Source: Asterias amurensis (Eukaryota > Echinodermata > Asteroidea > Forcipulatida > Asteriidae). From it: a stretch of 64,000 bases of DNA. The notes beneath the pieces were generated by a model. The model was not told the DNA's origin. It worked only from the letters and a program-made list of their open reading frames with translations, and did no database searches. Positions 20,328 to 57,348 of this stretch are shown one piece after another (the first letter of the stretch is position 1; every line of letters starts with the position of its first letter). Location of the stretch: the NCBI RefSeq assembly GCF_032118995.1, contig NC_092661.1, forward strand, positions 5,086,501 to 5,150,500, in the 5' to 3' direction. The position numbers and the translations under genes are program-made.

Positions 20328-20614
20328 CTAGCCACGGACTACTGCATACACCAAGCAGCCTGGCTGATCATCTGCCTTCACGTCTCCAGCCTTTACATCG
20401 TAGAGCCTGCACTGACCAGAAGTCATGACGTAGTCGAAAGACCAACACCCGCCATTAATCTTGCAACGCATGAAACATTGCATGGGTGACTTCATGTGAA
20501 CGACCAGCAGAGGGCGTTCGTTGGTTATTTCTTTGTCCACAAACATCAATGTGGACAAGCAGGTGATGGAGACCGACGGGTTTACGATCATTGCAGCTGT
20601 AGACATATCGGGAG
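20328..20614 (-). CDS. Gene B exon 5: PAN/apple domain and stop
   Basis: 287 nt from a CAACAG acceptor to TAG. It encodes SITCLSTLMFVDKE, MQCFMRCKINGGCWSFDY and SGQCRLYDVKAGD, ending VYAVVRG-stop. Six Cys fit the PAN/apple pattern. Confidence 0.86.
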
Positions 20615-32483: not shown

Positions 32484-32752
32484 CTAGCCACGGACTACAG
32501 CATACACCAAGCAGTCTGGCTGATCATCTGCCTTCAAGTCTCCAGCCTTTACATCGTAGAGCCTGCACTGACCAGAAGTCATGACGTAGTCGAAAGACCA
32601 ACACTCGTTATTCATCTTGCAACGCATGAAACATTGCATGGGTGACTTCATGTGAACGACCGACAGAGGGCGTGCGTTGGTTATTTCTTTGTCCACAAAC
32701 ATCAAAGTGGACAAGCAGGTGATGGAGACCGACGGGTTTACGATCATTGCAA
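32484..32752 (-). CDS. Gene C exon 5: PAN/apple domain, shifted acceptor
   Basis: It encodes SITCLSTLMFVDKE, MQCFMRCKMNNECWSFDY and SGQCRLYDVKAGDL, ending AVVRG-stop, with six Cys. The acceptor used by B and D (CAACAG) reads CAACCG here, so the AG is lost. CCACAG, 17 bp downstream, is phase 1 and keeps the frame, removing six residues before the domain; it is taken here as the start at 32752. Confidence 0.74.
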
Positions 32753-35700
32753 CTGTGGACATATCAATAGCGGTTGAATCAAATTAGAAACAAGTAGTAG
32801 AAAGCCAGAACATGCTGTGGTCGTTAAAAAAAAAAAAAAAAACTCTTCTCCGAGGTCTCTGCATATATTTTTTTTCTCGAAAAGATTACGACACAGTAGG
32901 CGGTAAATCCCTTAAAAAAAAACAAGAATGCCGAAGAAACAAGCAACCGACACACAGTGGGCCAGAATTGGATCTAAGTGCGCCAAAATTATATTTCAAC
33001 ATATTTATGGTGAAAAGTTGATTTTTAGGGATTTTTGGATACGTAGATTTCGTAATGGCTATGACGTCATCATGTTCCTAAGTAGTGATTGGTCGGCAGT
33101 AGTTTTATTATAACTACTAATTATTATGCGTAGGGCATACAATTTGTTCAAACATTTGTTTGGCTAACCTGGGTATAACAAAAACAGTGTGAACAAAGTA
33201 TTTTGCGATGCAAAGTGTGTTTTCATAAAAGTTTCTAAAAGTGAAACTCATGAATGGTGTCCTTTCTTTGATGATGAACAGAGAAACGTGATCGCTGACC
33301 ACACGCACTATCGAGTCGTTACAGGTGGTTGAGTCAAAACAGGCGTCTCTCATTCATTATAGGGGTATACTTCAAAATTAAATAATTTCCAAAGTCGCAA
33401 AAAGTCGCAACCAAATTTGGTTTTAAACTGTTCTTGAAGGTTCAGGCTTCTGTAAAAAGTGAGAATTAAAGCGGCAATCGGTGGCATTTTATATTTCCTT
33501 CGTCTCTGACAAAAAAGAATGAAAATTAGGAGGTATTTTATGTGATTTCTTAGATTTTGTCAAACAACAAACATAACTTAAACTGATTATTAACTTAGAT
33601 TAAAAAAAAAAATCGAACCGGTTTTCATGGCGTTATCTTTTATGAGCTGTTCAGGGCAGCAAGTTAAACTACACATTGACCGTGTCGCACTTTTATTAAC
33701 ATTTTGTGAGTGGCGTTTTTTCATTAATTCTAAAACAGTAATAAACCAACTTAAGTATTGATTCTTGAAACTATCCCCAATTGGCGCAGTTTGACACAAC
33801 ACGTAAAACTCTCAAACAACTAACAAAAACCGAAATACGCAATTACTCAATACAATGTTTATCCAAAGACCAATTCAAGACGATGTGTACCTGAATAATA
33901 ATAAAAAATTGTTTGTAGATTTCCTCATTCTACAAGATTAGTCCATTACAAGAAAATGCAAAAACCGTTCTTTGTCATAATTCATATTCTTGTTAATGTC
34001 CTTACTTGTTGTTTGAAGGCAGTCTTCCATGGGGTACTCTTCAACCATTACTTCGCAGAGCGTTAGGAGGTTGTCCCATTCTCCATTCACATGGAAATCG
34101 TCGTCCACACTGACGTACCGGGCAATCACCGGAGGGTCACATACAATCTGTAGGTGTGCCCCAGGGATCGATGCTTGGTCTCTTGTCACTGGTAACCCAC
34201 ACGCGGCGTTGTTGAAAATGTCGTTATGTATGCCTGCCCTTACCACCGCACCATTCAATCGTTCATCTGTCAATGAAATTAAACTCTTTGTTAAACTTGC
34301 TTTAACTCAGGATGCACAACATTTTTTTTTCAAATTAGTCCAAATGCTTGATGTTTTGTACAGTTATACTAGGATTATCAATGTTACTGGCTTTGGCAAT
34401 AACATTTTTTCATGTTGTTACATTAATTATGTTCAAATGCATACTCGCGAACATCAACCAACGACATTGGGTTGGCAGAAACCAATATGCATTGCAGTAG
34501 AATCTTTGATTAAAATATTTTGTCGGTGTTTGCAATAAGAACTTCCCTTTCAAGTCAGAGTTATCTTAAAATAACGAAATTCTGTCTGCGAACAAACCAT
34601 AGAAATCACCATGAGTATTGTTATAGTATCCATAACAACAACTAATAAGTGTTAGTATCAACACGTTCTAAATTATTAACGCTTAAGAACTTACTACCAG
34701 CATCTCCTCTGTTGACAAGGGTGATACGACCGAGGCAGTGGTTTGCTTCCAGGTCAACCTTCCACCAGGGATGGGCATTATAACCTGCAACATGAACATC
34801 GTAAGAGAAGGCATGATTTACAGAAAATTAGGACAATATTGGCTGAAACCCAAAAGGTATAAGTAGTGCAGAATCACTTTTATACAGCAAACCGCGGGTG
34901 TGACTATTCTGTGTTTCCACGAAGCCCTTTTCAGTTGTGACACCGCCTCTCGGGAATGTTTTTTTTCTTCTCTCGTCTATGCAATTTCCCAATAGGGAAC
35001 AGATTTCCCTGTGACACATTAACTGGGCCACTGTCAGTGATATAATTGGATGCAATGATGTCGTGTGTGCGGCACCGTAATGTAGCCCGAGCCCTAAATG
35101 TAGCCCGGACCTAAATGTAGCCCCAAACATGTACCTAGATGTATCCCGGACCTAAATGTAGCCCCAAACACGTACCTAAATGTAGCCCGGACCTAAATGA
35201 ACTTAGCCACAGACATGGCACTACTGCTTAATGGTGTTCCAAAAAAGACACTTCGCGTCGCTGTCGCCGTCGCCGTCGCGGTCGCGGTCGCCATCGCCGT
35301 CGCCGTTGCCGTCGCAGTTGTCATCGCCGTCGCCTCCGGACTCCTGAGGGCGCTGTTTCACTATCCTGCACAGAGCTGTCCAAATATTTAAAGATGTTAG
35401 GGGGACGAGGGCTGCGACCGTGACGGCGTCGGCGACTGCGACTGCGACGGCGACATTGATGGCGACGGCGACGGCGACGCAAAGTGTCGTCTTTCGAACA
35501 CCATAACTGCTAGATATCCATCTACTGTGGATGTTCAATCTATGGTATAAGATTTACTTGAACTGGGGACAAAGTCCATTGCGTTGTTTCCATTGTCCGA
35601 CACCGCTCCCACCCCCCCCCCCCCAAGACACACACACACATACACCCACACAAACACCACAAACATTCCGGATGCTGCGGTTTCAGGACTCGTTTCGGTT

Positions 35701-38700
35701 TAGGTAGTAAGGCAGATGACTCCTGGTGCCAAGTGCATTCGGCGGTAGTTTGCTCATCAGTCCCAAACTGCACTATCAACTGTGAAATAACGCTGAGTTA
35801 ATATATCTTTGTCGTTGCTCCTTTGTCTATATATTCAAATGTTAAGACCTGCGAGTTAGGTATAGCCTTAAAATCCTTTTCTTTTTGTCATTTTCTTTTG
35901 TCCTTTTTTATTTTTTTTTAATTACTTTTATTAATTTTATTCTTCTTCTTCTTATACGAGACCCCACATAAACCCACCCTGTTAACAGCTGTTGCTTTTA
36001 TCTGCACTTTGAATAGTTATTATTTAAACACTTTAATAGACCGATTGCATTACAAATGTTTTCATGTGATCACGTGACCTAAGTGAGTATTGAAAAACAC
36101 AGTTACACAGTAAAGACATGGGAAGACTCGTACCGACGGACCATAATTGGCTGTATTTTCGCTAAATAACCCTTAACTTAAAACGAAGCCCTTTTTGTTA
36201 ATTTGAACGTTGTGATATTGATTTAAATCACATTTGCTGTTTGATATTTCCAGTAATCTACTACAAAATGCTCACGCGCCGTTTGCGTTGTGCACAGCGT
36301 CAAGTCGGGCTGAAGGGAGATTACGAAGTTGATCCGACTCATAGTTGACAGCTACCCCTTCCAATCAAATAGTTTGAGGGTGAAAAATAAGGGATTTGCA
36401 GCTCCTATTTGGTGTAACTGTGTTTACCCAATACTGGCATTGTTCAGCCACCGGTAAGGTCTCATGTTACAATCCCGGAATATTCTTCAGTGATTTCGAG
36501 AATTGAGTCTTTATTGAACAACAAATTGCAACAGTAATCATGTCTTTTTACCGCACGTTTTATCCCATGTTTGTTTACATATAATAAAACCCACAACAGG
36601 TCACGTGACGCATGGAGCGCAATCGATCTATTGAGTCCAGTTTATTATGCATGTTTTTCATTTGAAACGAGTCAAACAACTCGCACTTTCATTCATTGTA
36701 GCAATCATAGTGTGTAAGGGGAGAAGCGAATCATACATGTAGCTGTGTATCCGACCATCAGATGAGACAATTGTGATTTTTAAAAATTTTATTAAATAAG
36801 TGCATCTTTATACAGAGTTTTACTATAGATGGGCAGGCGCCGTTTGTATGATAGTGCGGGTAGGAAACGAAAATGGGTAGAGAATGCAGAGGTTGATGAG
36901 GAAAACGCATGTTTTTGGTGTGGTCCCTGGTAGTAAACCATCCCTTGGTTGCTTGGACGTTGCTTTTGGAGCTGTCAATACGGCGGTTAAAACTGCACTT
37001 ACTATCTTTGATGTTTTTATATATCTCCACGGAAGAAAGGGGGTGTGGGTTTATTAGAGATCGATCATTGGTGCTGCACGACAACGACATACCATTCAAC
37101 AACATAGTGTGTGTATGGGAAAAGAGAATAACGCGTAGCCCTTGTGCAATCAGACTATAAAGACGAGACTGTATATGTGACCAAAAAACAACATTTTGAT
37201 GGTTTTGTAGAATAATAAGCATCGTAAAGAGTGTTTGTAGGAAGGAGGACACGCACAAACAAAAATAAAGTAATACCGGAACGCACTGAAAGTATTTCCC
37301 TTGTTAATGGAGAATCATGTAAATTAAAGTTTTAAAGAACGTATGGGGCGATATGTGGGTAGTCCTTACGGAATGGGTTTTTGTGCGGGGGTGGGGGGGG
37401 ATGGATAGGATAGATAACAACACATGTTTTCGGTATGGTCTCTGGTAGTAAAAGTTTCCCGACTGTTAATTGATGTTTTGAGGTGGGAGACAGATGTCTC
37501 TGTGTTCAAACACTGAGTCAATGATTACAGCAGAACTAATTTATGATGTTTTTATGAAACTCTATGAAGACAAGGGAGGTACAAAGGGAGGGGGGGGGGG
37601 GTAAAAGGAAGGGGTTTCTGGGGAAAGGGTAGTTGGAACATAAAGGTCGGGGAGACATTGAGGATGGGGGTGTTTAGAGTAGCGGTGTTGAACAATAAAA
37701 ACAACCCAATGGGCTTGTGCCCAAGAAACGGTTGAAGCAAATCTTCCACATACTTCATATACGACGAATATCTAGCAGTAGGTTTGTGTTTAAGAAAAAC
37801 ATTAATATGAAAAAAGGCGTCTTTGTCCAAAACGAGAACGTGTTGAAAACATGTACTTGCATTTAGTGTTGGTGTAGATTTGACTGCGCATATCTCTATG
37901 TGAAATGAATGTAGGTGAAAGGTGAAGAGGGACGAGGACCGACCTTGTCCGGAAGCCACTCTCAGGCGTTATTCACGAGCCTCGAAGTGTGACGTCTGTG
38001 CGGCCCCTAATTGCAGCCCGAGCCCTAAACCTCGTTTTTATCCAACCCAAAGTACATTTATTAGTTGCAAGATTGAAAAATACATCAGCAGGTCGTACTA
38101 AGGAGGAAGTTTGTTTTACTTTGTTTCAAATGTTTTTGCTAAAAATTGTAAGTACGAGTGTGTGAACACAATTTTAAAAAGCGAGGATTGTATGTTCTTT
38201 GCCCCGAGTTACACTCACTTCTACCCACCAATGTAATGTGCATCTTGCAAACATTTTTAACTTTAATAAATTTTCCTCTTACCAGTGTTAGAGCAAGACC
38301 CATCAGCGTAGCTTGTATTTAAGTTGCCGTCAACTGCTCGAGATGCGGCTGAAAATTTTGAATTCTCGTAGTCCGAGATCTGGCTGGCTTGCATTCCATG
38401 GAGATCCAACGCTGAAATGAACATGATTCAATTTTGGAAGTGTATTCGTTGTGGACGCAATCCTATACTTTTAATCGATGTTTGTTTTGATGGGAATGTA
38501 TAATTTTGGTAATCATATTTAATATTAATGAAAGTTATACCTTTTAGTAGAAACCACAAAAGCCGCTTTGGATAGTGTCAAACATTTATAATACATTTCA
38601 ATTCGTTATGATTTTATTAGAAAAAAAGATGAAGGTTTTTGTTTCATTTCATTTCATGTCCCTTGAATCTGAGATTAACGGTCCTATTATTGCGTATTTT

Positions 38701-41700
38701 AGAGATTTTATTTCCTGCGTGGACATTAAAATAATCTGTCTGGATTTTTGGGCGATATCTCAAAACGAGACTTGTTCAATGAAACGTTCCCAACTACATT
38801 TTTAAGCGATATAGACCAGTTCCGAAAACCGAAGTAATAATTTGCTTTGAAGTATGTTTCGTTCCCTAGTTAGTTTCGTTAATTAAATACTTACCTGTGA
38901 GATCGAGGCACAAGCAGGATAGCGGGTAAAACCACACGAGGATTCCAAAGAGAAATATCAACAGGTTTTTCTCTAGCCACTTTCCCTCGCAGTTTTTTCA
39001 TTAATTCTAAAACAGTCATAAACCAACTTAAGTATTGATTCTTGAAATAATCCCCAATTGGCGCAGTTTGACACACTACGTAAAACTCTCAAACAACCGA
39101 CAAAAACCGAAATACGCAATTACTCAAAACAATGTTCATCCAAAGACCAATTCAAGACGATGTGTACCTGAATAATAATAAAAAATTGTTTGTAGATTTC
39201 CTCATTCTACAAGATTGGTCCTTTACAAGAAAATGCAAAAACCGTTCTTTGTCATAATTCATATTATTGTTAATGTCCTTACCTGTTGTTTGAAGGCAGT
39301 CTTCCATGGGGTACTCTTCAACCATTACTTCGCAGAGCGTTAGGAGGTTGTCCCATTCTCCATTCACATGAAAATCGTCGTCCACACTGACGTACCGGGC
39401 AATCACCGGAGGGTCACATACAATCTGTAGATGTGCCCCAGGGATCGATGCTTGGTCTCTTGTCACTGGTAACCCACACGCGGCGTTGTTGAAAATGTCG
39501 TTATGTATGCCTGCCCTTACCACTGCACCATTCAATCGTTCATCTGTCAATGAAAATTAAACTCTTAGTTAAACTTGCTTTAACTCAGTATGCACAACAT
39601 TTTTTTTTTAATTAGTCCAAATACTTGATGTTTGGTACAGTTATACTAGGATTATCAATGTTACTGGCTTTGGCAATAAAAACATTTCATGTTGTTACAT
39701 TATTTATGTTCAAATGCATACTCGCGAACATCAACCAACGACATTGGGTTGGCAGAAACCAATGTGCATTGCAGTAGAATCTTTGATTATATTATTTTGT
39801 CGGTGTTTGCAATAAGAACTTCCCTTTCAAGTCAGAGTTATCTTAACGAAATTCTGTCTGCGAACAAACCATATAAATCACCATGAGTATTGTTAAAGTA
39901 TCCATAACAACAACAGTTACTAATAAGTGTTAGTATCAACACGTTCTAAATTATTAACGCTTAAGAACTTACTACGATCATCTCCTCTGTTGACAAGGGT
40001 GATACGACCGAGGCAGTGGTTTGCTTCCAGATCAACCTTCCACCAGGGATGGACATTATAACCTGCAACATGAACATCGTAAGAGAAGGCATGATTTACA
40101 GAAAATTAGGACAATAATTGGCTGAAACCCAAAAGGTATAAGTAGTGCAGAATCACTTATACAACAAACCGCGGGTGTGACTATTCTGTGTTTCCACGAA
40201 GCCCTTTTCAGTTGTGACACCGCCCTCTCGGGAATGTTTTTTTTCTTCTCTCGTCTATGCAATTTCCCAATAGGGGACAGATTTCCCTGTGACACATTAA
40301 CTGGGCCACTGTCTTTATCCGTAGGTACTTGCTTTTCAAAACGAGTGATATCATTGGATGCAATGATGTCGTGTGACAAGAGCTTTCAATGGCTGTGTTT
40401 TCATTGGTCGGGGTGATTGTGGGTGCAGCTGAAAAAAACATATTACCACGGACCAATCAAAACAAAGATATGAACAACTTACTTTCGGTCGTCTGCTGCA
40501 TGCAGCGTCCATCTGTAATAACTATGTTTAGTGCATCCACCATGTAGAAAACATGTACATTTAGTGTTGATGTAGATTTGACTGCGTAGCTCTATGTGAA
40601 ATGAATGTGTGAAAGAAGAGTGACGATGACCGACCTAGTCCGGAAGCCACTCTCTGGCGTTAATCACGAGCCTCGAATAATGACGTCTGTGCGGCACCTA
40701 AATGTAACCCGAGCCCTAAATGTAGCCCGGACCTAAATGTAGCCCCAAACGTGTACCTAAATGTAGTCCGGACCTAAATGTAGCCCCAAACATGTACCTA
40801 AATGTAGTCCGGACCTAAATGTAGCCCCAAACATGTACCTAAATGTAGCCCGGACCTAAATGAACTTAGCCACAGACATGACACTACTGCTTATGGTGTT
40901 CCAAAGACAAAACTTTGCGTCGCCGTCGCCGTCGCGGTCGCCTCCGCCTCTTGACTCTTGAGGGTGCTGTTTCACAATCCTGCACCAAACTATCTTTAAA
41001 GCCGTAAATGCGCCTTATATCCAGCAATATAATCTGAGTAAAATGTGCTCTTGCGCCTGCAAGAGTTCAGAAATGCTTCCGTCGCCGTCGCCGTCGCCGT
41101 CGCATTCGCCGTCGCAGTCGCAGTCGCCGTCGTCGCCGTCGCCATCGCAGTCGCAGTCGTCGTCGCAGTCGCCGTCGCCGTCGCCGTCGCATCCGGACTC
41201 TTGAGGGCGCTGTTTCACTATCCTGCACAGAGCCGTCCGAATATTAAGATGTAAGGGGGCCGAGGGCAATACAATATTTAGTTGGACGCAGATTTGAATT
41301 TTAAGTAGATTGGCTCATTGATCTGTCTCTTAGCTTAAACCGGCTTTATTTTGATTACAACACGAGGGACCTACATCTACTTATTTGTTTGTTTGTTTAT
41401 TTGTTTGTTTGTTCATCTATTTAGTTATTATTTTATAAAAAAAATTATTGATTGGATGAATGAATGAATGGATGGATAGATAGATTAGATGAGTGCATGT
41501 AAAAATCATATAAAAAAAATCAATATATTTTATTAAGTTCATTTAACTATTCTTTTAACTAGGTACATGACTTTATCTATTCTGGTCCCCAGCACTACAG
41601 TAACTGCCTAATGGAGAGCTATAGCTCTAGCTACCTAAAAAGCCTCAAAATTAACAATAAAAACGGGGTTTCTTCCAACCAAGACATACTGAGCAAATGT

Positions 41701-44700
41701 CTAGAGATCCAGCAATGTTGCAAAAGAACTAAACGTGGTTGTCGTGCTGGGAAACTTCTACAAAGGAGAATTGAGGTATATTGTGAGACCTCGATCTGCC
41801 AAACCAACCTCGTACCCACGTCTACCCTCAGTGCTCTCAGTGCCGATGTGTCACAAACAAAAACCTGCTTGAACTACTACTAGCACGAATTGCCCAAGGC
41901 TGAGCTCCCTCCCAGGTTTTTTTCCTCACAAACATTCGTTCAGCCATGAATAAAGTTGATGAACTTGAAGCTATCCTCAAGCAGCCATATTCCTCCCCAA
42001 TTGACATTGCTGTTCTTAACATGATCACTCCAGATATTTACCAAGATTAGAACTGAAAGAAGTGGGGGTGGAGTAGCGATTTATGTTAGAGACAACATCC
42101 CCGCTATGGTTCTAACCATTATTACAGTGCCCGAAGAGCTTGAATGCCTGTGGCTACAGGTCCGACCCCATAGGCTCCCACGTCAAGTATCGAGTGTGGT
42201 TGTCTCATCCACCTAAATCGGAACATCAGCAACAAACTCTGGTTAATCACATTGTCAGAACCCTCGATCTACTGAACTCAAAACATCCAGACGTGGGCCT
42301 AGTGATTTTATAGGGGATCTCAACAGAACTGACACCAATCCTATATGCAGAGCTCATGCCCTGAAGCAGGTAGTTGACAAACCTACGAGAAACGATGCGA
42401 TCTTGGACGTTATCATCACTACGGTCAGGCAGGCATCATGTGTGTGAAGTTTCAGATCAATGACGTCATCGGGGGTCAAGTGCCGCGGCAATAAAGGTGC
42501 ACTTTTTGAAGTCGTATAACTCTCGAAGTAATGATGCGATTATGTTGAAACCTTGTAGATTGTTAGATATTGGCAAGTTCTTGTGAATGGTGAAATGACG
42601 TCCTGATGGCGTCATCACATGATTTTTTTAATGATTTTTTTCATTTTTGTACTTTTAACACATAAATTGCTATCTGAACATGGTACAATCCAATTTGTTT
42701 AAATTTATTTATGTCACATTGGGCAAATTGCTTTGAAACACAACAAATTTCAAACTCAGTTGAGAAATTTGAAAATGTTATTGACGAAACAGCTATGCAT
42801 TTGTGCACAAATGCAATCATGTCTAGATTCAATTGTGTCCTCCCTGCAATACTGTCCACTCCGGACACTTTTGCATATGCATATGAATATTTACGTATTT
42901 TATGATTGCAGCGAATACCCAACGGCCGAACATTTCCAATGCCATTCATTACATGCATTTAGCTGTACAAAATGGCGAACGTGTTCCGTCAACCAAGGGC
43001 GTTTAATTTACTGCAATGACGCTTTTGCACGGGGCGGACACAACTGCATATGCAAGTGTGTCCAGGCGGACACAATTGCATTATGCAGCAGCGTCCGTGC
43101 GGACACGATTGCATATGCAAAACCGCCTGGCGGAAATTATTGCATATGCAATAATGTCCTCCGGATAGTATTGCATAGAGGACATAGTTGCACCTATCTT
43201 AAAAAAACTAATTTAAAACGTACACTTATGGTTTGCGAGACTATGAAAAGAAAAATCCACACCAATTATCTGGGAACTTTTTTTCACATTAGTCACCCGG
43301 CTAATTCAATTTCATTTCAAATAAAATAAGCTTCAGCAATCTATAGTTTGGGGGAGCTGTTGATAGTTTAAAACGGCTCCCTTTGAAGTAACGTAGAAAG
43401 AGAAAGAAGTAACTTTCCACGAATTTAATTTGGAGACCTCATAATTAGATTTGAGGTCTCAAAATCAAGCATCTGGAAATACACAACTTCGTGTGACAAA
43501 GGTATTTTTTCTTTCATTATTATCTCGCAACTTCGACGACCAATTGAGCTCAATTCTTGACAGGTTTGTTATTTTATATATATGTTGAGACACACCAAGT
43601 AAGAAGAATAGTCTTTGACAATTACAAATAGTGTTCAGTGTTTTTAAACAAATACCGGTCAATATTAAGATCATACAAATTCACGAAGTTGTAAAGTTCA
43701 AGTTTGCCTTTTGTCAGCCACATTTCATCAACATTATTGTAAAAATTAAAGCCTCAGTATTTGTTTTTTCTATATGTGCAATATTTATTTTATATACGAC
43801 GAATAGCAACACAGCACATGTGCTGCGAATCACCCCTGTTTCGGTTCAGATGCGTATAATCCGTCGTATTATACAGCAGCGAGCCATGGTAGATTCGCCG
43901 TTTTAGTTTTGTTTTAATTAAATTTGAGCTTTAACGGCACTGGACACTAATAATTGCTAGCATAAAAACTTACTTGGTAACGAGCAACGGAGAGCTGTTG
44001 GTAGTAAACAAGATTGTGGGAGACGGCTCCCTCTGAGGTGTTCTTATGAATCTCACAGCACGCAAAATAATGCAGTAAGGCTGTTTGTTCCTTTTATTCG
44101 ATGACCTTGAGCCCAAATTTTCACAGAATTGTTATTTTAAACAAGTGTTGGGATACACAAGTTAGCATACAACTGTTCTCTTGACAATAACCACACGTGT
44201 CAAGTGCGTTTATTCGTCATTGACAATTTTAAAATGCTGCCTTAAAATCTTATTTTGTCAGGTTCAAATTTTGGAGAATTGTTTGATTGTTAAATACAAA
44301 TCCGGGGTGCGTTTTGAGGAAAATTTTGGAGTTGAGATATCATACATTTCTGAATGTTAAGTAAATTTTCTAAAGTTTTCAAAACATCTGTCTAACTAGA
44401 GGAGGGTAATACCCCTATTGGCCATTGACAACATGTGCCCCGTACAATGTAGTACTATTGCTCATTATAGTTTGTAACCCGAAGGAAGGTATTATAGTAG
44501 TTAAACAAAAAAGCAGAACAGTTATTTTCAGAACCGAGAAGTCTCCCGAACATCCGATGATATACTCCGCGGTAGTAGAATAAAGAAAGACAGCTCTCTA
44601 TGAACAAACTCTACCTATGAACAAACTCCAAAGACGAGAACCGTGATCACGGAGAGTAATGGTTGTGTATAATGTGCGTGCGAAAGGGACATGCATATTG

Positions 44701-47700
44701 TTACTACATCTAAGTTGTGGTTATATGAACGTCTTTATTAAAGGTGAAGTAAGACGTGAAAAGGCGAGGGAGGAGGTTATGAGTGTATTTTTACATGAAG
44801 GTGCCTAAACAAGATTGGTAATCAATTAATTGTTTTACGTCAATCCCTTGAAAAGTCTAGTGTGTAATCTTGTGTAAAATGCTTGACTGAATAACACAAA
44901 ATTAATAACAACATCGAAAAAAGTTAACAACAAAGTAAATCAACGCAAGGCCTACCATGCATGGGCCCTGTTTGTGGATTCAAATACTCGTTGTTCCAAC
45001 ATTGACATTTCTTGGAGCTTTTTCAAGCTGATTTGATTATTTTTTTTCCTTTTCCTTTCAACCTTTGTGGACACTATTGGTAATTACTCAAAACAATTAT
45101 TTGCATAAAACCTTACTTGGTGACGAGTAATGGGGAGAGGTTGATGGTATAAAACATTGTGAGAAACGGCTCCCTCTGAAGTGACATAGTTTTCGAGAAA
45201 GAAGTAATTTTCCACGAATTTGATTTCGAGACCTCAGATTTAGAACTTGAGGTCTCGAAGTCAACCATCTAAACGCACACAACTTCGTGTGACAAGGGTG
45301 TTTTTTCTTTCATTATTATCTCGCAACTTCGACGACCAATTGAGCCCAAATTTTCACAGGTTTGTTATTTTATACATATGTTGAGATACACCAAGTGAGA
45401 AAACTGGTCTTTGACACTTACCAACAGTGTCCAGTGTCTTTAATACATTTCTTGGAAAAAGATCGCGGCGAAAATTCACGAATCATTACAGATAAAACCT
45501 ACATGGGCTTTTTGTCCGGGGCCCTTGATCAGAGAACCCCGGGAAAATTGAATTGTATTGTTATGGTTTATTTATAACAAAGTTATCACAGCCAGAGGTC
45601 GAATTAAGACAGTTTTTTTGAGATAAGAATATTTACAAATATAATATTTTGATAGTAAAGACATTATTTCAAATGCACACAACAGAAAACAGAACTCAAA
45701 GAGGTAATATGGAAATGGAACTATAGCACAAAATTACCCATGCATGATCGAATACCACAGAATGAGTTCACCAAAAGCTGATATAAAGATTACAAAAGAT
45801 TGCGGCTTAAAGACACTGGACACTATTGGTAATTGTCACTTGGTGTATCTCAACATATGCATAAACTAACAAATCTGTTAAAATTTAAACTCAATTGGTT
45901 GTCGAAGTTGCGAGATAATAAGATAATAATGAACGAAAAACACCATTGTCACTCGAAGTTGTGTGCTTTTAGATGCTTGATTTTGAAACCTAACAATTTA
46001 TTCTGAGGTCTCGAAATCAAATTCGTGGAAAATTACTTCTTTCTCGAAAACAACGTTACTTCAGAGGGAGTCGTTTCTCACAATGTTTTATGCTATCAAC
46101 AGCTCCCTAAGTTTTATGCTAAAATTTATTTTAAGTAAATACCAATAGTGCCCACTGCCTTTAAGATACTTTTATTTCTGGTGGTTATTCAGCCTTTCTG
46201 GATTATCTGTATAGCGGCACACAGCTTAATGTTTTTTGTTTTGTTTTTTTACAAAAAAAAAAAAATAAGGTAAGATGCAAGCCTCTCCTTATACATTATT
46301 CTTGCGACTGGTGTCCGTTCACTCTTAATTAAATAAAACATCAACAGGTTCTCACTCCCTTTTACTGGGTCATCCATTCAACCACCGGAAGCAGCAAGCG
46401 ATCTTGAACTGACATTTTTAATGTCGTAGCGCTGATGAAATTTCCCTAATAAATTGTTGATGATTTGTTAAAAATGGACCCGGCAGTGTAAATAACTCAC
46501 TGTTCCAATCGTTTGAGTTGTTATGACAGCACCTATGATACAATATCGATTTTTCTCAGAGGCTGCCGCAGCTTGTGTTTTGGTTCGAAGGCGGGCTAAT
46601 AAATAATAAAAAATAAAACCAAGCCCCTTTCACACTAAAGCGCTTTTCACACTACAGGTATTTCCCGGGAAATTCCCGGGAAATGTTAGTCGATCTGTTC
46701 ACACTACAAAAAAATTCCGGGGAAATAACATTTTCCCGGGAAATAATTTACCCAGTTAAGGGGTAGGGTTAAAGGAGTGCTGTCTACCACCTGACAGTAA
46801 ATATTTTAGTTCAATTTGTTGCTCAACTTCTTACGATGGGTAGAAGTGACCGATGGAGTGATGATAACACTTTGAAACTAGTTGCATTTTTTGCCGACGA
46901 TGCAGTCCAAAAACAGCTAGATGGGCATATAGGCCTACAAGAAACGGAAAAGTTTTCTAAAAATTGGCTGACTGCCTGCGTGAAGCTGGATATGAACGGA
47001 CCCCTAACCATTGCAGATAAAAACTGAAAACCTTGGGGAAAAAAAAAACTATAGGTCGGTAGGATAATAGTTTTGTTTTTTTCAAGAAGAAACACACATT
47101 TAAAAGTCTTTATGAAGCCATGAAAAAATGCTAGACAATATAGGGCTAAAGCCTATTCAGTGTTCTTTCTTTGCACAATGGGAAAACAGCACTGTTGGTG
47201 TTAGAAAGGAAGATTGCTTCTTCTTTCTACTGCTATTGTCAAATTGTGCAAAATCAACCATGCGGTATTTTTTCTATAAAACCTTTAATTACCTTGGCCC
47301 TATATCATCATGGACATTATTATGCAATCCTTTGAAAATGCCATTCAGAAAAATACTAGGCCTTACCCCATGGTTGAATCCCTTAACCCTGCCCCTGAGC
47401 AGGGTTAATTATTTCCTGGGAAATGTTTGAAAATCTATATCAAGTCAGCCAAAAGAGACCGTAGGTTTCTGTTTGCGGGATTGGGTAGGGAAAAATTAGG
47501 TCTTTTTTTTTTCGTGTGCGTGACCTAACATGACATCTACTTCCGGTCGGAACGGGCCAAAAACGGAAGTGCCCTGTAACTCAAAAGTGGTAAAAGTTAT
47601 GAAGTTGCCCAAGGACGTAAGTGTCCAGCAAGGGTGGGCAGTTCAAAGAAAATGTTGATGACGTCACACATTGCAACAGCGCCCTCTAGCGGCAGGTTAA

Positions 47701-50700
47701 TAACTCTTCAAAATGGACTTTTTGAAGATGTCTGCGGTGAAATTTTTTGTAATCACTTTCAATTTTACACACACGTTAACTGTCAGGCATCAATGTGTGA
47801 AGTTTCAGATCAATGACGTCATCGGGGGTCACGTGACGCGGCAATAAAGGTGCACTTTTAAAGTCGTATAACTCTCGAAGTAATGATGCGATTATGTTGA
47901 AACTTTGTAGATTGTTAGATATTAGCAAGTTCTTGTGAATGGTGAAATGACGTAATGATGGCGTCATCACATGATGTTTTAAAAGACGTTTTCCATTTTT
48001 GCGCCTGCAACACATCAATTGCTATCTGAACATGGTAAATTTCAAATTCAGTTGAAAAATGCTGTGCGCGTCGCGCGTATCGCGTGATGTGGCAGAACTG
48101 TCCCGGCCGTTGCTCTTGACCCATAGGAATGAAGAAACTGTTTTATAATATAAGCACAGGTGCGAGCTCGCGTGTCACGCCCATGTTTCAACACTTTTTA
48201 CTGGTCATTAACAAAGGTTTATACACATCCACGTGACGCGCTCTCCACCAATAGGAATAGCGAAACTGTACGGGTCAACCGGGAAGTGTGACCTTATATC
48301 AAGAGCTACACAACTTTTTTGAAACCTCTTTTTCCGTTAAAGATTCCTTGGGCATTGAAGCACATAATCCAAACAAAACAACACGGAACAGCTTTGTGTT
48401 TGTTCACAAACACTTAATGTCTAGTTTATATATACGTTGTGATACACGAAGTGTGGGCCTTTGGACAATACTGTTTACCGAAAGTGTCCAATGGCTTTAA
48501 GGAATAACAGTGCGAGTACCCGGTCTGCACTGCATGGTAATGACCGGCATGGTAATGGTGGCTGGCGCTGTTAACGGACCGAGCCGGGCTCGGTCCGTTA
48601 ACAGCGCCAGCCACCAACCCGGTCAATACCACGCAGTGAAGACCGGGTCCGAACACTATTATTCCCATTAATAAATACATTGTTTAGCGAATTAAACGGC
48701 TAAAATTGTCAAAATTTTGTGTGACTTTTCTCTCGGCGGTACTTCCAGACATGTTCAGGGGCCATATTTGAGCTTTTGATGGTTCCCATCTCTTTCGTGC
48801 ATTAATCACATTACTGATCTTTGAGACCAGTGACTGACTCTTTTAAATAATGATCTGTTCAGCGCCTCTACTGGGGTCAAAGGAGGCAAATGATTGTACG
48901 AAAGCTGTTCTTTGTGCATTAAAACGCGCACATGAGCTCAGCGTCAGTTATACGCGCGCACCTGTTACACGCGTGCGAAGTTGCAATGAAACTAACATGG
49001 ATATAAAGCATGCGATACAGTGCAACGCGCAAAGTTTACACAATGTATGCTGATTTAGTGGCCACTAATTCGCTATTTTCCAAAGCCGGTCTTTATACCA
49101 TCGTTTCACTCCCACACGTGACCGGGTTTTGACCAATCAGAATCTTGAAACCGTCCAAGGTATTTATTAATTGTTAATAGGTAGTAGAAATTCAACTTAA
49201 GAATGGTCAAAGTGTAATCTTGAACACCTAAAATGAAATAGAATGACCGAAGCGAATCTGAACGAGAAAAATGCCATCAAGTGTGCACGAAAACGAAATT
49301 GAATGCATTAATAGCTAAAAAGAAACCCTAGTTTGAGAGGATTAGGGGAAACTGCGTGAGTTTGAATGCATGTTAATGAAAATAATTGACTTTTTTTGCT
49401 GAAATTAGCCGGGAAAACCTATACTTCATTAATTTTTTTAGCCACCAGTATTGACGATCGAATCTGGGCTTAATTTCATAGAGCTGCCAAGCACGAAAAT
49501 TTGCTTAGCATGAAATTTCTTCCTTGATACAAACAGGATTACCAACAAAATTTACATTTGTTGATTATTGCTTGGTACTTGTATTCAGCTGTTGTTTGAT
49601 TATCCTGAAAATCACGTGGAAATTTGGTTGAGAAATCCTGTTTTTGTCATGCTCAGCAAATTTTTATGCTTAGCAGCTCTATGAAATTGGGCCCTGCTCT
49701 TTGCTCCGGCACATGTGATGGAACGAAACCAACCGTGACAGCAATCGATCCAGTAATAATCTGAGTAAAATGTGCTGTTGAGCAAAAATTCAGAAGCGAC
49801 GGCGACGGCGACGGCGAGGGCGACTGCGGCGGCGACGGCGACGGAAACATTTCTGAACTCTTGAAGGCGCAACAGCACATTTACTCAGATTATGTTGCTG
49901 AATATAAGGCGCATTTACATCTTTAAATATAGATTTGTGCGGGATTGTGAAACAGCGCCCTCAAGAGTCAAGAGGCGGAGGCAACGGCGACGGCGACGGC
50001 GACGGCGACGCAGAGTTTCGTCTTTGGAACACCATAAGCAGTAGTGTCATGTCTGTGGCTAAGTTCATTTCAGGTCCAGGCTACATTAAGGTACATGTTT
50101 GGGGCTACATTTAGGTCCGTGCTACATTTAGGTACATGTTTTGGGCTACATTTAGGTCCGGGCTACATTTAGAAACATGTTTGGGGCTACATTTAGGTCC
50201 GGGCTACATTTAGATACATGTTTCGGGCTACATTTAGGTCCGGGCTACATTTAGATACATGTTTGGGGCTACATTTGGGTCCGGGCTACATTTAGGTACA
50301 TGTTTGGGGCTACATTTAGGTCCGGGCTACAATTAGGTACATGTTTCGGGCTACATTTAGGTCCGGGCTACATTTAGATACATGTTTGGGGCTACATTTG
50401 GGTCCGGGCTACATTAAGGTACATGTTTGGGGCTACATTTAGGTCCGGGCTACAATTAGGTACATGTTTCGGGCTACATTTAGGTCCGGGCTACATTTAG
50501 ATACATGTTTGGGGCTACATTTAGGTCAGGCTACATTTAGGTACATGTTTGGGGCTACATTTAGGTCCGGGCTACATTTAGAAACATGTTTGGGGCTACA
50601 TTTAGGTCCGGGCTACATTTAGATACATGTTTCGGGCTACATTTAGGTCCGGGCTACATTTAGATACATGTTTGGGGCTACATTTGGGTCCGGGCTACAT

Positions 50701-52126
50701 TCAGGTACATGTTTGGGGCTACATTTAGGTCCGGGCTACAATTAGGTACATGTTTGGGGCTTCATTTAGGTCCGGGCTACATTTGGGTACATGTTTGGGG
50801 CTACATTTAGGTCCGGGCTACATTTAGGTACATGTTTGGAGCTACATTTAGGTCAGGCTACATTTAGGGCTCGGGCTACATTTAGGTGCCGCACAGACGT
50901 CTGTGCGGCCTCTAATTGTAGCCCGAGCCCTAAACCTCGCCTGACCTAAATGTAGCCCCAAATCTTTACTTAAATATCGCTAAATTATATGACACAGGCA
51001 TGTTGATTTGTTGGTTCAAACCCGCTCAAAGTACATTTATTAACTGCTCAAAATAGTTGCAAGATTGAAAAATATATCGGCAGGTCGTACTAAGGATGAA
51101 GTTTGTTTTACTTTGTTTCAAATGTTTTTGCTAAAAATTGTAAGCACTATCCTTAACAGCAGTTAAAAAAAAAACCACGAGTTCACGAGTTCAACTTCAA
51201 CTGCGATCTTCTCTAAACAAGGAATTTTATGATTCGCACTCGTCAGTTCCTGGAGCAACCGACGATACCATACGAGTGTGTGAAGATTACAACACCAAAC
51301 ACAATTTTAAAAAGCGAGGATTGTATGTTCTTTGCCCCGAGTTACACTCACTTCTACCCACCAATGTAATGTGCATCTTGCAAACATTTTTAACTTTAAT
51401 AAATTTTCCTCTTACCAGTGTTAGAGCAAGACCCATCAGCGTAGCTTGTATTTAAGTTGCCGTCAACTGCTCGAGATGCGGCTGAAAATTTTGAATTGTC
51501 GTAGTCCGAGATCTGGCTGGCTTGCATTCCATGGAGATCCAACGCTGAAATGAACATGATTCAATTTTGGAAGTGTATTCGTTATGGACGCAATCCTTTT
51601 GATCGATGTTTGTTTTGATGGGAATGTGTAATTTTGGTAATCATATTTAATATTAATGAAAATTATACCTTTTAGTAGAAACCACAAAATCCGCTTTGGA
51701 TAGTGTCAAATATTTACAATACATTTCAATTCGTTATGATTTTATTAGAAAAAAAGATAAAAGGTTTTTATTTCATTCCATTTCATGTCCCTTGAATCAG
51801 AGCTTAACGGTTCTATTATTGCGTATTTTAGAGATTTTATTTCCTGCGTGGACATTAAAATAATCTTTCTGGATTTTTGGGCGATAGTTCAAAACGAGAC
51901 TTGTTCAATGAAATGTTCCCAACAACATTTTAAAGCGATATAGGGACAGTTCCGAAAACCGAAGTAATAATTTGCTTTGAAGTATGTTTCGTTCCCTAGT
52001 TACGTTAATTAAATACTTACCTGTGAGATCGAGGCACAAGCAGGATAGCGGGTAAAACCACACGAGGACTCCAAAGAGAAATATCAACAGGTTTTTCTCT
52101 AGCCACTTTCCCTCGCAGTGAGCCAT
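32484..52126 (-). CDS. Gene C: F-type lectin-PAN gene with an internal duplication, predicted two FTL domains
   Basis: Exons in transcription order: 52021-52126 (signal peptide), 51416-51544, 39973-40062 and 39283-39543 (first FTL), 38283-38411, 34695-34784 and 34006-34266 (second FTL), 32484-32752 (PAN). All junctions are phase 1 and the joined frame is open, about 444 residues. The duplicated halves are nearly identical, so the duplication is recent. The left copy of exon 1 (38895-38993) has lost its start at the junction; with no acceptor it should be skipped as intron. Neither FTL copy has the CC pair after NRGD (AG in one, DR in the other), and CSHT is CSNT in both. Alternatives: the right copy could end alone by a poly(A) site after exon 4, giving a lectin without PAN, or the locus could be partly silent. 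No transcript evidence is available. Confidence 0.68.
32753..34005. other. Gene C intron before the PAN exon
   Basis: Contains the inactive ancestral acceptor position (CAACCG near 32770-32776) and the left limit of the internal duplication at about 33714. From 33714 rightwards the sequence is matched at 38994 onwards. Confidence 0.65.
34006..34266 (-). CDS. Gene C exon 4, left copy: C-terminal FTL segment
   Basis: 261 nt encoding ERLNGAVVRAGIHND to EDCLQTT; GTAAGGAC donor, phase 1 with final base A. Confidence 0.83.
34695..34784 (-). CDS. Gene C exon 3, left copy: FTL core, site variant GDAG
   Basis: 90 nt encoding YNAHPWWKVDLEANHC and ending VNRGDAG. It differs from the right copy at four bases. 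Three change the protein, and two of these are the adjacent codons after RGD. Confidence 0.83.
35060..35545 (+). repeat. Composite foldback/minisatellite element, copy 1
   Basis: Starts TGTGCGGCACC, then about three units of the 41-bp CCTAAATGTAGCCC...GTAC repeat, GAACTTAGCCACAGACATGG, then two GTCGCC-rich arms in opposite orientation (35250-35335 and 35410-35480) flanked by ATGGTGTTCCAAA and TTTCGAACACCATAA. Confidence 0.7.
35546..38000. other. Gene C intron stretch with two unrecognised minus-strand frames
   Basis: Poly(C)/CA repeats lie at 35617-35660. Two open frames, 36758-37258 (166 codons) and 37552-37959 (135 codons), show no recognised domain. GATGTTTTTAT and GGTATGGTCTCTGGTAGTAAA-like pieces recur about 480-540 bp apart (36920-37040 and 37430-37560), suggesting an old internal duplication. 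G runs lie at 37385 and 37590. Confidence 0.4.
38283..38411 (-). CDS. Gene C exon 2, left copy: N-terminal FTL segment
   Basis: 129 nt with the same acceptor and donor as the right copy, encoding LDLHGMQASQISDYEN to CSNT. Being phase 1 at both ends, it can follow either exon 1 or the right-hand exon 4. Confidence 0.83.
38895..38993 (-). pseudogene. Decapitated copy of gene C exon 1 at the duplication junction
   Basis: The sequence matches exon 1 at 52021-52119 (EGKWLEKNLLIFLFG to LCLDLT plus the GTAAG donor). It stops matching within the TGC codon of MAHC, where gene C intron 4 sequence (as at 33714 onward) begins. In frame, ATG-GCT-CAC is replaced by TGA-AAA-AAC, so the signal peptide cannot start here. 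With no acceptor upstream, it should be passed over in splicing. Confidence 0.85.
39283..39543 (-). CDS. Gene C exon 4, right copy: C-terminal FTL segment
   Basis: 261 nt between a TGACAG acceptor and a GTAAGG donor. It starts ERLNGAVVRAGIHNDIFNN and contains CDPPVIARYVSVDDD. The protein is identical to the left copy, with three synonymous differences. The last base (G) allows in-frame joining to the exon 2 copy at 38411. Confidence 0.83.
39973..40062 (-). CDS. Gene C exon 3, right copy: FTL core, site variant GDDR
   Basis: 90 nt between a TTGCAG acceptor and a GTAAGTTC donor. It encodes YNVHPWWKVDLEANHC and ends VNRGDDR. It lies 11.35 kb from exon 2 across an intron full of repeats. Confidence 0.83.
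40381..40500. repeat. Foldback repeat related to 19085-19205
   Basis: AGCTTTCAATGGCTGTGTTTTC, GGTGCAGCTGA and GGACCAATCAAAACAAAGAT match in order. It is absent from the left duplication copy, whose sequence jumps from GTCGTGTG to TGCGGCACC. Confidence 0.55.
40670..41262 (+). repeat. Composite foldback/minisatellite element, copy 2
   Basis: Starts GTGCGGCACC, then about four 41-bp units, GAACTTAGCCACAGACATGA, a short GTCGCC run (40918-40945) and a longer one (41079-41190), ending near CCTGCACAGAGCCG. Confidence 0.72.
41378..41490. repeat. TTTG and GGAT/GAAT microsatellites
   Basis: A (TTTG)n-like run at 41385-41412 and GAATGAATGAATGGATGGAT with GATAGATAGA at 41455-41485. Confidence 0.8.
41560..42425 (+). 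mobile_element. LINE fragment with endonuclease domain
   Basis: The pieces read RGCRAGKLLQRRIEVY and FFLTNIRSAMNKVDELEAIL, then GGGVAIYVRDNIPAM, LECLWLQVRPHRLPRQ, IVRTLDLLNSKHPDVGLV, GDLNRTD and KPTRNDAILDVIIT. This is the order of an APE-type endonuclease in CR1/L2-like LINE ORF2. Several stops and shifts are present, and it ends where repeat R11 starts. Degraded and without RT. Confidence 0.72.
42428..42700. repeat. Dispersed repeat R11 (copy 1)
   Basis: TGTGTGAAGTTTCAGATCAA, TGACGTCATCGGGGGTCA, CGAAGTAATGATGCGATTAT and GGCGTCATCACATGAT. Very similar to 47785-48035 in the same orientation. Confidence 0.75.
42861..43190. repeat. 32-bp tandem array carrying TTGCATATGCAA palindromes
   Basis: Units begin GCGGACACAA or similar at 43034, 43066, 43099, 43130 and 43161 (spacing 31-33 bp). 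Each has a (T)TGCATATGCAA-like palindrome in the middle and a partial GTGTCC inverse at the end. A solitary related unit (CCGGACACTTTTGCATATGC) lies at 42861. Confidence 0.8.
43347..43647. mobile_element. MITE family M1, left end missing
   Basis: GAGACCTCATAATTAGATTT followed by GAGGTCTC centre, ending AAATAGTGTTCAGTGTTTTTAA. Confidence 0.7.
43931..44212. mobile_element. MITE family M2, shortened interior
   Basis: TTAA-CGGCACTGGACACT to CACGTGTCAAGTGCG. Shares TGGTAACGAGCAACGGAGAG and ACGGCTCCCTCTGAGGT. Confidence 0.65.
44625..44815 (-). mobile_element. Fragment of the same LINE as 7728-8520
   Basis: Matches 8175-8355 (AAAGACGAGAACCGTGATCA, GGGACATGCATATTGTTACT, AAAGGTGAAGTAAGACGTGA), part of the LINE tail coding region, with scattered differences. 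Confidence 0.7.
45067..45443. mobile_element. MITE family M1
   Basis: GTGGACACTATTGG to CCAACAGTGTCCAGTGTCTTTAA. The centre reads GAGACCTCAGATTTAGAACT followed by TGAGGTCTC. Confidence 0.78.
45807..46164. mobile_element. MITE family M1, inverted orientation
   Basis: TTAA-AGACACTGGACACTATTGG to CCAATAGTGCCCACTGCCT-TTAA. Confidence 0.78.
46625..47432 (+). mobile_element. DNA-transposon fragment with Myb/SANT-like ORF
   Basis: Inverted pieces flank the unit: CCCGGGAAATAATTTACCCA with GGGGTAGGGTTAA on the left; TTAACCCTGCCCCTGAGCAG and GTTAATTATTTCCTGGGAAA on the right. Extra TTCACACTA and CCCGGGAAAT pieces sit on the left only. It contains the 63-codon frame at 46836. PIF/Harbinger elements encode a separate Myb/SANT-like protein, which is the likely source. 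No DDE transposase is present. Confidence 0.5.
46836..47027 (+). CDS. Myb/SANT-like DNA-binding fragment (transposon-derived)
   Basis: 63 codons starting MGRSDRWSDDNTLKLVAFFA, then DDAVQKQLDG. The W-S-D-x-x-T-L-x-L start followed by an acidic turn and QxQLDG is typical of the Myb/SANT-like domain of Harbinger-type elements and related host proteins. The third helix is replaced or lost before the stop, so the domain is incomplete. It may be a first exon or a decayed remnant. It lies inside gene C intron 2 on the opposite strand. Confidence 0.45.
   Translation: MGRSDRWSDDNTLKLVAFFADDAVQKQLDGHIGLQETEKFSKNWLTACVKLDMNGPLTIADKN
47433..47784. other. Gene C intron 2 stretch, no gene
   Basis: Contains AGCGCCCTCTAGCGGCA (around 47677-47694) and otherwise unrecognised sequence. 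Confidence 0.4.
47785..48035. repeat. Dispersed repeat R11 (copy 2)
   Basis: Same orientation as 42428-42700; TGACGTCATCGGGGGTCACG and TAATGATGGCGTCATCACAT. Confidence 0.75.
48058..48275. repeat. Fragment of repeat family M7
   Basis: GCTGTGCGCGTCGCGCGTAT, ATAGGAATGAAGAAACTG and CTCTCCACCAATAGGAATAG match the right half of 12373-12933. Confidence 0.65.
48410..48500. repeat. Right-end fragment of MITE family M4
   Basis: ATACACGAAGTGTGGG, then GTTTACCGAAAGTGTCCAAT and GGCTTTAA. Confidence 0.6.
48501..48665. repeat. Long hairpin with perfect 59-bp palindromic core
   Basis: The core 48557-48615 is a perfect palindrome (29-bp arms, one-base centre), GGTGGCTGGCGCTGTTAACG on the left arm. The flanks continue the inversion imperfectly: GGAATAACAGTG/CACTATTATTCC and ACCCGGTCTGCACTG/CAGTGAAGACCGGGT. 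Confidence 0.85.
49060..49465. other. Gene C intron 2 stretch, no gene seen
   Basis: AT-rich; no repeat or coding signal recognised. Confidence 0.4.
49466..49694. mobile_element. MITE family M8, near-complete
   Basis: TGGGCTTAATTTCATAGAGC at the left and GCTCTATGAAATTGGGCCC at the right. Interior AAACAGGATTACCAAC and GAAAATCACGTGGAAATTTG. Confidence 0.75.
50065..50890. repeat. 41-bp minisatellite (about 20 units)
   Basis: The unit is GGGCTACATTTAGGTCC followed by GGGCTACATTTAGGTACATG and TTTG. Two related half-units differ by the ACATGTTTG tail. Variants AGATACATG, GAAACATG and TTCGGG alternate in a higher-order pattern. Confidence 0.85.
50880..50915. repeat. Palindrome at the minisatellite edge
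   Basis: GGTGCCGCACAGACGTCTGTG followed by CGGCC is a near-perfect inverted repeat. Minisatellite orientation reverses across it. Confidence 0.7.
51416..51544 (-). CDS. Gene C exon 2, right copy: N-terminal FTL segment
   Basis: 129 nt between a TTTCAG acceptor and a GTAAGAGG donor. It encodes LDLHGMQASQISDYDN, then ASRAVDGNLNTS, and ends CSNT. It differs from the left copy by one base (Asp for Glu). Confidence 0.83.
52021..52126 (-). CDS. Gene C exon 1: signal peptide
   Basis: 106 nt encoding MAHCEGKWLEKNLL, then a hydrophobic core and LSCLCLDLT; GTAAGTATT donor, phase 1. This is the only complete exon 1 of gene C. Confidence 0.85.
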
Positions 52127-56294: not shown

Positions 56295-56602
56295 CTAGCC
56301 ACGGACTACTGCGTACACCAAACAGCCTGGCTTATTATCATCTGCTATCAAGTCTCCAGCCTTTACACCGTAGAGCCTGCACTGACCAGAAGTCATGACG
56401 TAGTCGAAAGACCAACACTCGTTATTCATTCTTAAACACCGCTGGAAACAGCGCAACTTCGACTTCATGTGAAGGACCGACAGAGGGCGTGCGTTGGTTA
56501 TTTGTTTATCCACAAGCATCAATGAGGTCTTGCAGGTGATGTAGATCGGCGCGTCCACGTCCAATGCAACTGTAGACATCTCAGTGGTTGACTTATCAGT
56601 GG
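56295..56602 (-). pseudogene. Relic D PAN/apple exon, open frame
   Basis: 308 nt, phase-1 acceptor to TAG. It has one residue more between the Cys pairs than B and C (RCLRMNNEC). It is the most diverged PAN copy but is uninterrupted. Confidence 0.72.
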
Positions 56603-56990
56603 CTGTTGAATAGCATTATAAAATAAAGAAGTAGAAGGCGAGAACACGCTTTGGTTGTTCGCAAAATATTTAATATGACTCTTCTCCGAGATCTTTGCAT
56701 CTTTGTCGAAAAGATAACGACAAAGTAATTTACAGAGGCGGTAAATCCCTTTATAATAAGACCGCCGAAAAATCAAACAACCGTTACAACACATTATAAA
56801 GCTATTAATGAAACAATCAGGCATTCTGGCAAATACTTTCACAAAGTGAGTTTACCATTCAAGACTATGTGTACTGAATAAAGAAAAAATAGTTGTTTGT
56901 AGACTTCCTCATTCAACAAAAAAGGTTAACTACATAAAAATACAAAAACCGCTCTTTGTCATAATTAATTTTCTTAATATTATTTCTTAC

Positions 56991-57252
56991 TTTTTGATTG
57001 AAGGCAGTCTTCGATGGGGTACTCTTCAACCATTACTTCGCACAGTGTTACGAGGTTGTTCTCAAATCCATTCATTATGATCTTTGTCGTCCACACTGAC
57101 GAACTGCGCAATCACGGGAGGGTCACACAACAACTGTATATGTCCCCCAGGGATCCATGCTTGGTCCAATGTCACTGGTAACCCACAAGCGGCAGTGCTG
57201 AAAATGTTGCTCTCTATGCCTGCTCTTACGACAGCACCAATCAACCGAACTT
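56991..57252 (-). pseudogene. Relic D FTL exon 4 with one-base insertion
   Basis: 262 nt where the family has 261 (gene C) or 255 (gene B). Acceptor TTGGCAG and donor GTAAGAAA are retained. The frame breaks after DDKDH. Confidence 0.75.
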
Positions 57253-57348
57253 CTGCCAATTAAACATCCATGCTTATTAACTCGTTTCAATTAAGGATGC
57301 ATTAACTTCAAACCATCTTCATCTGGGTGTAAAACTTGGTTTTTAATA

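Follow-up and report, generated by a model that had tools for sequence, protein, structure and literature searches.

Gene C of Asterias amurensis carries two sets of F-type lectin (FTL) exons ahead of a single PAN exon, and this arrangement raises the question of whether a recent duplication inside one gene has turned a one-domain lectin into a two-domain lectin. The gene lies on the minus strand of the 64,000-nucleotide stretch that we analyzed (C14:5086501-5150500, here called the window), which we aligned to itself, and we also searched the genome (491,506,623 bases in 23 contigs). A first-pass annotation of this DNA had claimed that exons 1-4 of the gene occur twice in tandem and PAN once, and the self-alignment, the exon boundaries and the Pfam matches all confirm this. 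The self-alignment pairs 33715-35035 with 38992-40313, and 38165-38993 with 51298-52119, each pair at 95.9% identity. Since these two blocks meet at 38992-38993, the duplication is head to tail, with its joint at 38993/38994. The right duplicated unit (38992-52119) measures 13.1 kb and the left duplicated unit (33715-38993) 5.3 kb, a difference that arises because intron 2 holds DNA that is not shared by the two copies. A stretch of ~10 kb within the right-copy intron 2 has a 41-bp minisatellite at both of its ends (40543-41127 and 49796-50887), in inverted orientation and similar in this to a foldback element, and the left copy carries a short piece of this minisatellite sequence (35054-35412).

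Inspection of the junction (38992-38993, minus strand) demonstrated that intron 4 runs directly into exon 1 from base 8 of that exon, and that 2 bp (AC) are common to both sides. A 241-bp probe spanning this junction has one full-length match in the genome, with the other 27 of the 28 listed matches being one-sided. The annotation had placed a joint of intron 4 to the middle of exon 1 at about 38994, with the second start codon removed; the joint itself and the loss of the ATG both stand, but the break falls after the first 7 nt of exon 1 and not in its middle. The left copy of exon 1 (38895-38993, minus strand) thus begins after the ATG, and this remnant retains 99 of 106 nt together with an intact donor, CAG/GTAAGT. 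Homology-driven recombination at the breakpoints was rejected, as just 2 bp are common to both, and the sequence of the junction instead resembles the outcome of end-joining with 2 bp shared. The left copy was also rejected as an independent gene on inspection of the junction, since it has no ATG of its own and the one close by (in GAATTAATGAAAA) does not share its frame.

How old is this duplication, and is it real? Comparison of the left and right copies shows 50 differences in 1554 aligned intron sites (3.2%) and 9 in the 480 sites of exons 2-4, where there are no gaps; this divergence bears out the recent age that had been proposed for the duplication. A second study of A. amurensis, working with its own sample, gives a heterozygosity of 0.96% from k-mers and heterozygous SNPs at 0.632% (PMC11090083). 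The intron divergence is far above this reported heterozygosity (binomial P 5e-13 for 3.2% versus 0.96%), which argues that the two units are most likely paralogous copies rather than haplotypes. A false tandem duplication, produced during assembly by haplotypes or mis-joining, is therefore very improbable: in addition to the 3.2% intron divergence, the copies show length differences on the scale of kilobases, the window is free of any N, and the assembly (GCA_032118995.1) was made from HiFi reads using hifiasm, with haplotigs purged using purge_dups (PMC10625585). At the codon level, the copies are separated by 4 replacement and 4 silent changes (NG86 dN 0.011, dS 0.038), and 4 of 160 residues distinguish the two FTL domains. 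Selective constraint acting on the two copies after the duplication was considered and rejected for want of significance, with P=0.16 both for the 4:4 ratio of replacement to silent changes and for exons versus introns (Fisher).

The open frame is compatible with a product containing both domains. Exon 1 (52021-52126, minus strand, as are all exons of this gene) contains the ATG and a hydrophobic N-terminal segment, judged by eye to be a signal peptide, and comprises 35 codons plus 1 nt, ending at a CAG/GTAAGT donor; our genome search found this exon to recur in many paralogs. The FTL exons of the right copy are exon 2 (E2R, 51416-51544, 129 nt), exon 3 (E3R, 39973-40062, 90 nt) and exon 4 (E4R, 39283-39543, 261 nt, donor CAG/GTAAGG), and those of the left copy are E2L (38283-38411), E3L (34695-34784) and E4L (34006-34266, donor CAA/GTAAGG). 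In both copies exons 2-4 have intact splice sites, are multiples of 3 in length and start in phase 1, as does the PAN exon. Because every intron is phase 1, a transcript could splice 39283 to 38411 in frame and skip the remnant, as the annotation had predicted, and the phases and the joined translation agree with this. The further claim, that signal, FTL, FTL and PAN can be read through with no stop, also holds: the joined sequence is 1335 nt, encoding 444 aa, with a single terminal stop and none internally. We observe a duplication that is real, young and in frame, that was made without long homology, and that is compatible with a two-FTL protein. Pfam returned two stretches in the joined protein that each match PF22633 and PF00754 (F5/8-type-C), and one PAN_1, and the match to FTLs extends over most of the domain (Pfam; PDB 3cqo and 1k12). 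Gene C also has the common exon 1, the FTL exons 2-4, the PAN exon and the phase 1 introns of the FTL-PAN family, and from its open frame is predicted to encode a binary F-type lectin.

Residues of the fucose site are only partly retained in these domains. The fucose motif consists of a His, followed by Arg-x-Asp-x4-Arg/Lys (PMC5712786). On comparison with 3cqo and 1k12, both gene C copies have Asn at the position aligned with this His (SCSNT vs SCTHT), but retain the RGD and the later Arg. The contiguous Cys pair of RGDCC is replaced in both, by RGDDR in the right copy and RGDAG in the left; this pair is also missing from one domain of MsaFBP32, and hence is not strictly defining. Because loss of the His and of the Cys pair is common to both copies, it most simply predates the duplication. 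Gene B, in the same window (20.3-24.8 kb) and with an open frame in every exon, keeps the His (HCSHT) and, by inspection, RGDCC, whereas other members that have no His are found at C14:4794k (SCSST) and 5202k (SCSTT). Judged on these alignments, the gene C domains are FTL members by fold and sequence, and we do not assume that they bind fucose.

The claim that the duplication creates a two-lectin-domain protein is upheld as far as the frame is concerned, but the remnant donor and a lost PAN acceptor both weaken it, and such a product is a prediction only. We scored splice sites with matrices built from 24 donors and 52 acceptors, a small training set that is nearly all from this family and includes the sites of gene C itself; starting from 28 donors and 55 acceptors, we dropped misplaced donors ending in GTA and three inner-site PAN acceptors (gene C, gene D and C14:4795656), and at least one of the acceptors retained is doubtful (the lowest leave-one-out score is -11.9). 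The remnant donor at 38895 scores 13.8, the highest value among the eight donors evaluated in gene C and tied with the parent exon 1 donor, and between 39290 and 38405 just two donors reach the 5th percentile of the family, this one and that of E4R (12.6). Acceptor-like sites are present 0.1-0.3 kb upstream of the exon 1 remnant, and those at 39220 (6.5), 39167 (7.4) and 39006 (1.4) all precede its donor, with 39167 outscoring the acceptor required for the two-domain transcript, 38411 (6.1). As the remnant keeps its donor and has acceptor-like sites upstream, a poison exon could compete seriously with the 39283/38411 junction, and the duplication may have created this exon itself. The remnant donor and an intron 4 acceptor would then make a chimeric exon, for example 38895-39167 (minus strand), with a stop soon after the first FTL (at joined-frame codon 200 from 39220, at codon 206, an in-frame TGA, from 39167, and at codon 260 from 39006), such that the transcript would be degraded or would encode a single-FTL protein lacking PAN. 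Matrix scores from 24 donors and 52 acceptors that include gene C's own are, however, weak evidence, and the stretch containing the 39167 acceptor is presumably plain intron in single-copy paralogs; we consider this outcome unlikely, while giving it real weight. A conserved alternative terminal exon at 33890/39167 is one further candidate, though by inspection the frames differ among paralogs B, C and D. A transcript that leaves out one exon set altogether, by joining 39283 to PAN or 52021 to 38411, would give mainly single-FTL proteins, and either version is in frame and 284 aa long; alternative splicing changes FTL number in oyster bindin as well (PMC5712786). This would, however, mean bypassing three exons with splice-site scores inside the range of the family, and seems quite improbable.

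The second weakness concerns how PAN is joined. The PAN exon, as we place it (32484-32752, minus strand), extends from a fallback acceptor (ACAG/TTGCAATG) to a TAG stop and is recognized as PAN by Pfam. The usual PAN acceptor is lost (32771-32776, minus strand, with the fallback start of the exon 18 nt downstream), with gene C reading CAACCG where 8 alignable paralogs read CAACAG or CGACAG; examined by eye, all 18 other PAN exons have AG at their start, making the CG of gene C the sole exception of 19. The closest AG that keeps the frame lies 18 nt farther downstream and has a score of -2.1, which is below 94% of the sites in the family. These observations would fit a gene in decay, where PAN is joined inefficiently and the result is PAN-less transcripts or no useful product. 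Several further features point the same way: PAN dN is about equal to dS when gene C is compared to gene B (0.042 and 0.046 across 88 codons, which gives no hint of constraint, although the numbers are small), neighboring gene D (56.3-57.3 kb) is already broken, an AATAAA is present at 33697, and a stop is reached at codon 366 if E4L joins an acceptor at 33890. On the other side, the FTL exons are intact in both copies, and the inner position is, by eye, the start of at least three other PAN exons, which have better tracts; since these paralogs begin PAN there, a shift of acceptor is possible in gene C, and the frame is kept. Decay of the gene appears unlikely. In their PAN exons, genes C and B (32484-32752 vs 20331-20596) are far more alike, with a dS of 0.046, than in their FTL exons, where dN is 0.19 and dS 0.55 (exon 3 of gene B entered this comparison one codon short), and these PAN exons have probably been made alike recently by gene conversion.

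The two-FTL transcript that we prefer can be set against the rest of this family in the same genome. Paralogs on C14, C1 and C8 share exon order, phase and PAN with gene C; we scored the best 137 of 315 candidates from our genome search, so that all family counts are lower bounds, and many paralogs were read just in loci of ~3.2 kb. Our survey covered 19 PAN exons, and each of the 18 outside gene C has one FTL exon 4 beside it, compared to two in gene C. In 16 of these 18 the exon 4 is matched over its full or nearly full length. At C14:4328286, 67 of 84 residues of exon 4 are matched and the exon contains a stop, and in gene D (56300-57290), a pseudogene fragment, an FTL exon 4 with a frameshift and an in-frame stop is found together with a PAN exon. 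The gene at C14:4338539, one of the 16, has an extra exon 4 fragment of 22 aa just downstream of the full exon (C14:4338161-4338226). At 12 further PAN places among the matches listed, at most one FTL exon 4 match is listed beside any of them.

A second locus with FTL exon sets arranged head to tail in one open frame, all phase 1, is present at C8:20564315-20583423. This array contains 15 near-identical copies of exon 4 (88-100% aa identity) with 15 matching exons 2 and 15 exons 3. Of these exons, 39 were located by a pattern search, and 37 of them, joined from the first exon 2 on, translate to 1981 aa with no stop; this join comprises 11 complete sets and 2 sets with no pattern-matched exon 3, and a protein search supplies both of the missing exons 3, one of which is divided between two of the stretches retrieved. 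Over 12.9 kb of the array, 2,635-bp dimers are 99.5% alike. Unlike gene C, the array has 15 sets and keeps both the His (VCSHT) and RGDCC. A search for PAN in the 30 kb read gave no match up to an E of 1, and a candidate signal-peptide exon, located by a crude pattern only, lies near C8 20585930. Sequence similar by eye to a dispersed repeat of ~390 bp, which is found many times in the window (for example at 4968-5335), is present in the introns of this array. We regard the array as a candidate poly-FTL gene. Its in-frame FTL sets make gene C less singular, in that such duplication recurs in this genome, and the gene structures suggest that FTL cassettes multiply in frame in A. amurensis.

Gene C can also be compared to F-type lectins described previously. 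The best match of its domain to a solved structure is 3cqo (E 3.1e-28, in two stretches), which is MsaFBP32, the binary F-type lectin of striped bass, with two tandem FTLs per chain as we predict for gene C. The two domains of MsaFBP32 have diverged from one another while keeping the basic triad (PMC5712786), whereas those of gene C differ at just the 4 of 160 residues, have no His, and would be followed by PAN. Bindin of the oyster Crassostrea gigas contains one to five FTL repeats within one gene, with recombination in a variable mid-repeat intron and FTL number varied by alternative splicing (PMC5712786). FTL repeats have multiplied inside one gene in both oyster bindin and gene C. However, the breakpoints in gene C are in exon 1 and intron 4, and not in an intron inside the FTL as in recombination of the bindin type; gene C has undergone one end-joined duplication of a three-exon set, and PAN is not mentioned in what this source says of bindin (PMC5712786). 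It is plausible that the duplication in gene C is independent of that in oyster bindin. Our literature search found no work pairing F-type lectins with Asterias, and no work on an architecture of F-type lectin domain plus PAN domain.

Taken together, the reading we favor is that the ancestral gene C had the five exons of an FTL-PAN gene, as its neighbors do, and that a break-and-rejoin event would have joined intron 4 to exon 1 just past the start codon, with 2 bp shared, leaving a head-to-tail doubling of exons 2-4 together with most of exon 1. Some two-FTL transcript would then be the main product, accompanied by aberrant or single-domain forms, and splicing into PAN would use the fallback acceptor, 18 nt downstream from the lost site. 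To this explanation as a whole, i.e., an end-joined duplication with a two-FTL transcript as the most likely main product and a fallback PAN acceptor, we assign a probability of roughly 0.4. A further step, which we advance tentatively and with some doubt, is that this very young and possibly polymorphic duplication of an exon set has been caught in mid-change from a one- to a two-domain lectin. Of the four replacements that separate the copies, three are in exon 3 (V/A, D/A and R/G), near site residues and the loops of the binding site, a number too small to support a claim but one in line with the domains perhaps starting to diverge in binding. Repeats of lectin domains are common, but it is rare to see their first step at so early a stage, with the breakpoints, both copies and the leftover exon still readable. 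Gene C also points to a hurdle that such duplications may face, in that the new transcript can be poisoned by a leftover exon that has no start codon but keeps a strong donor.
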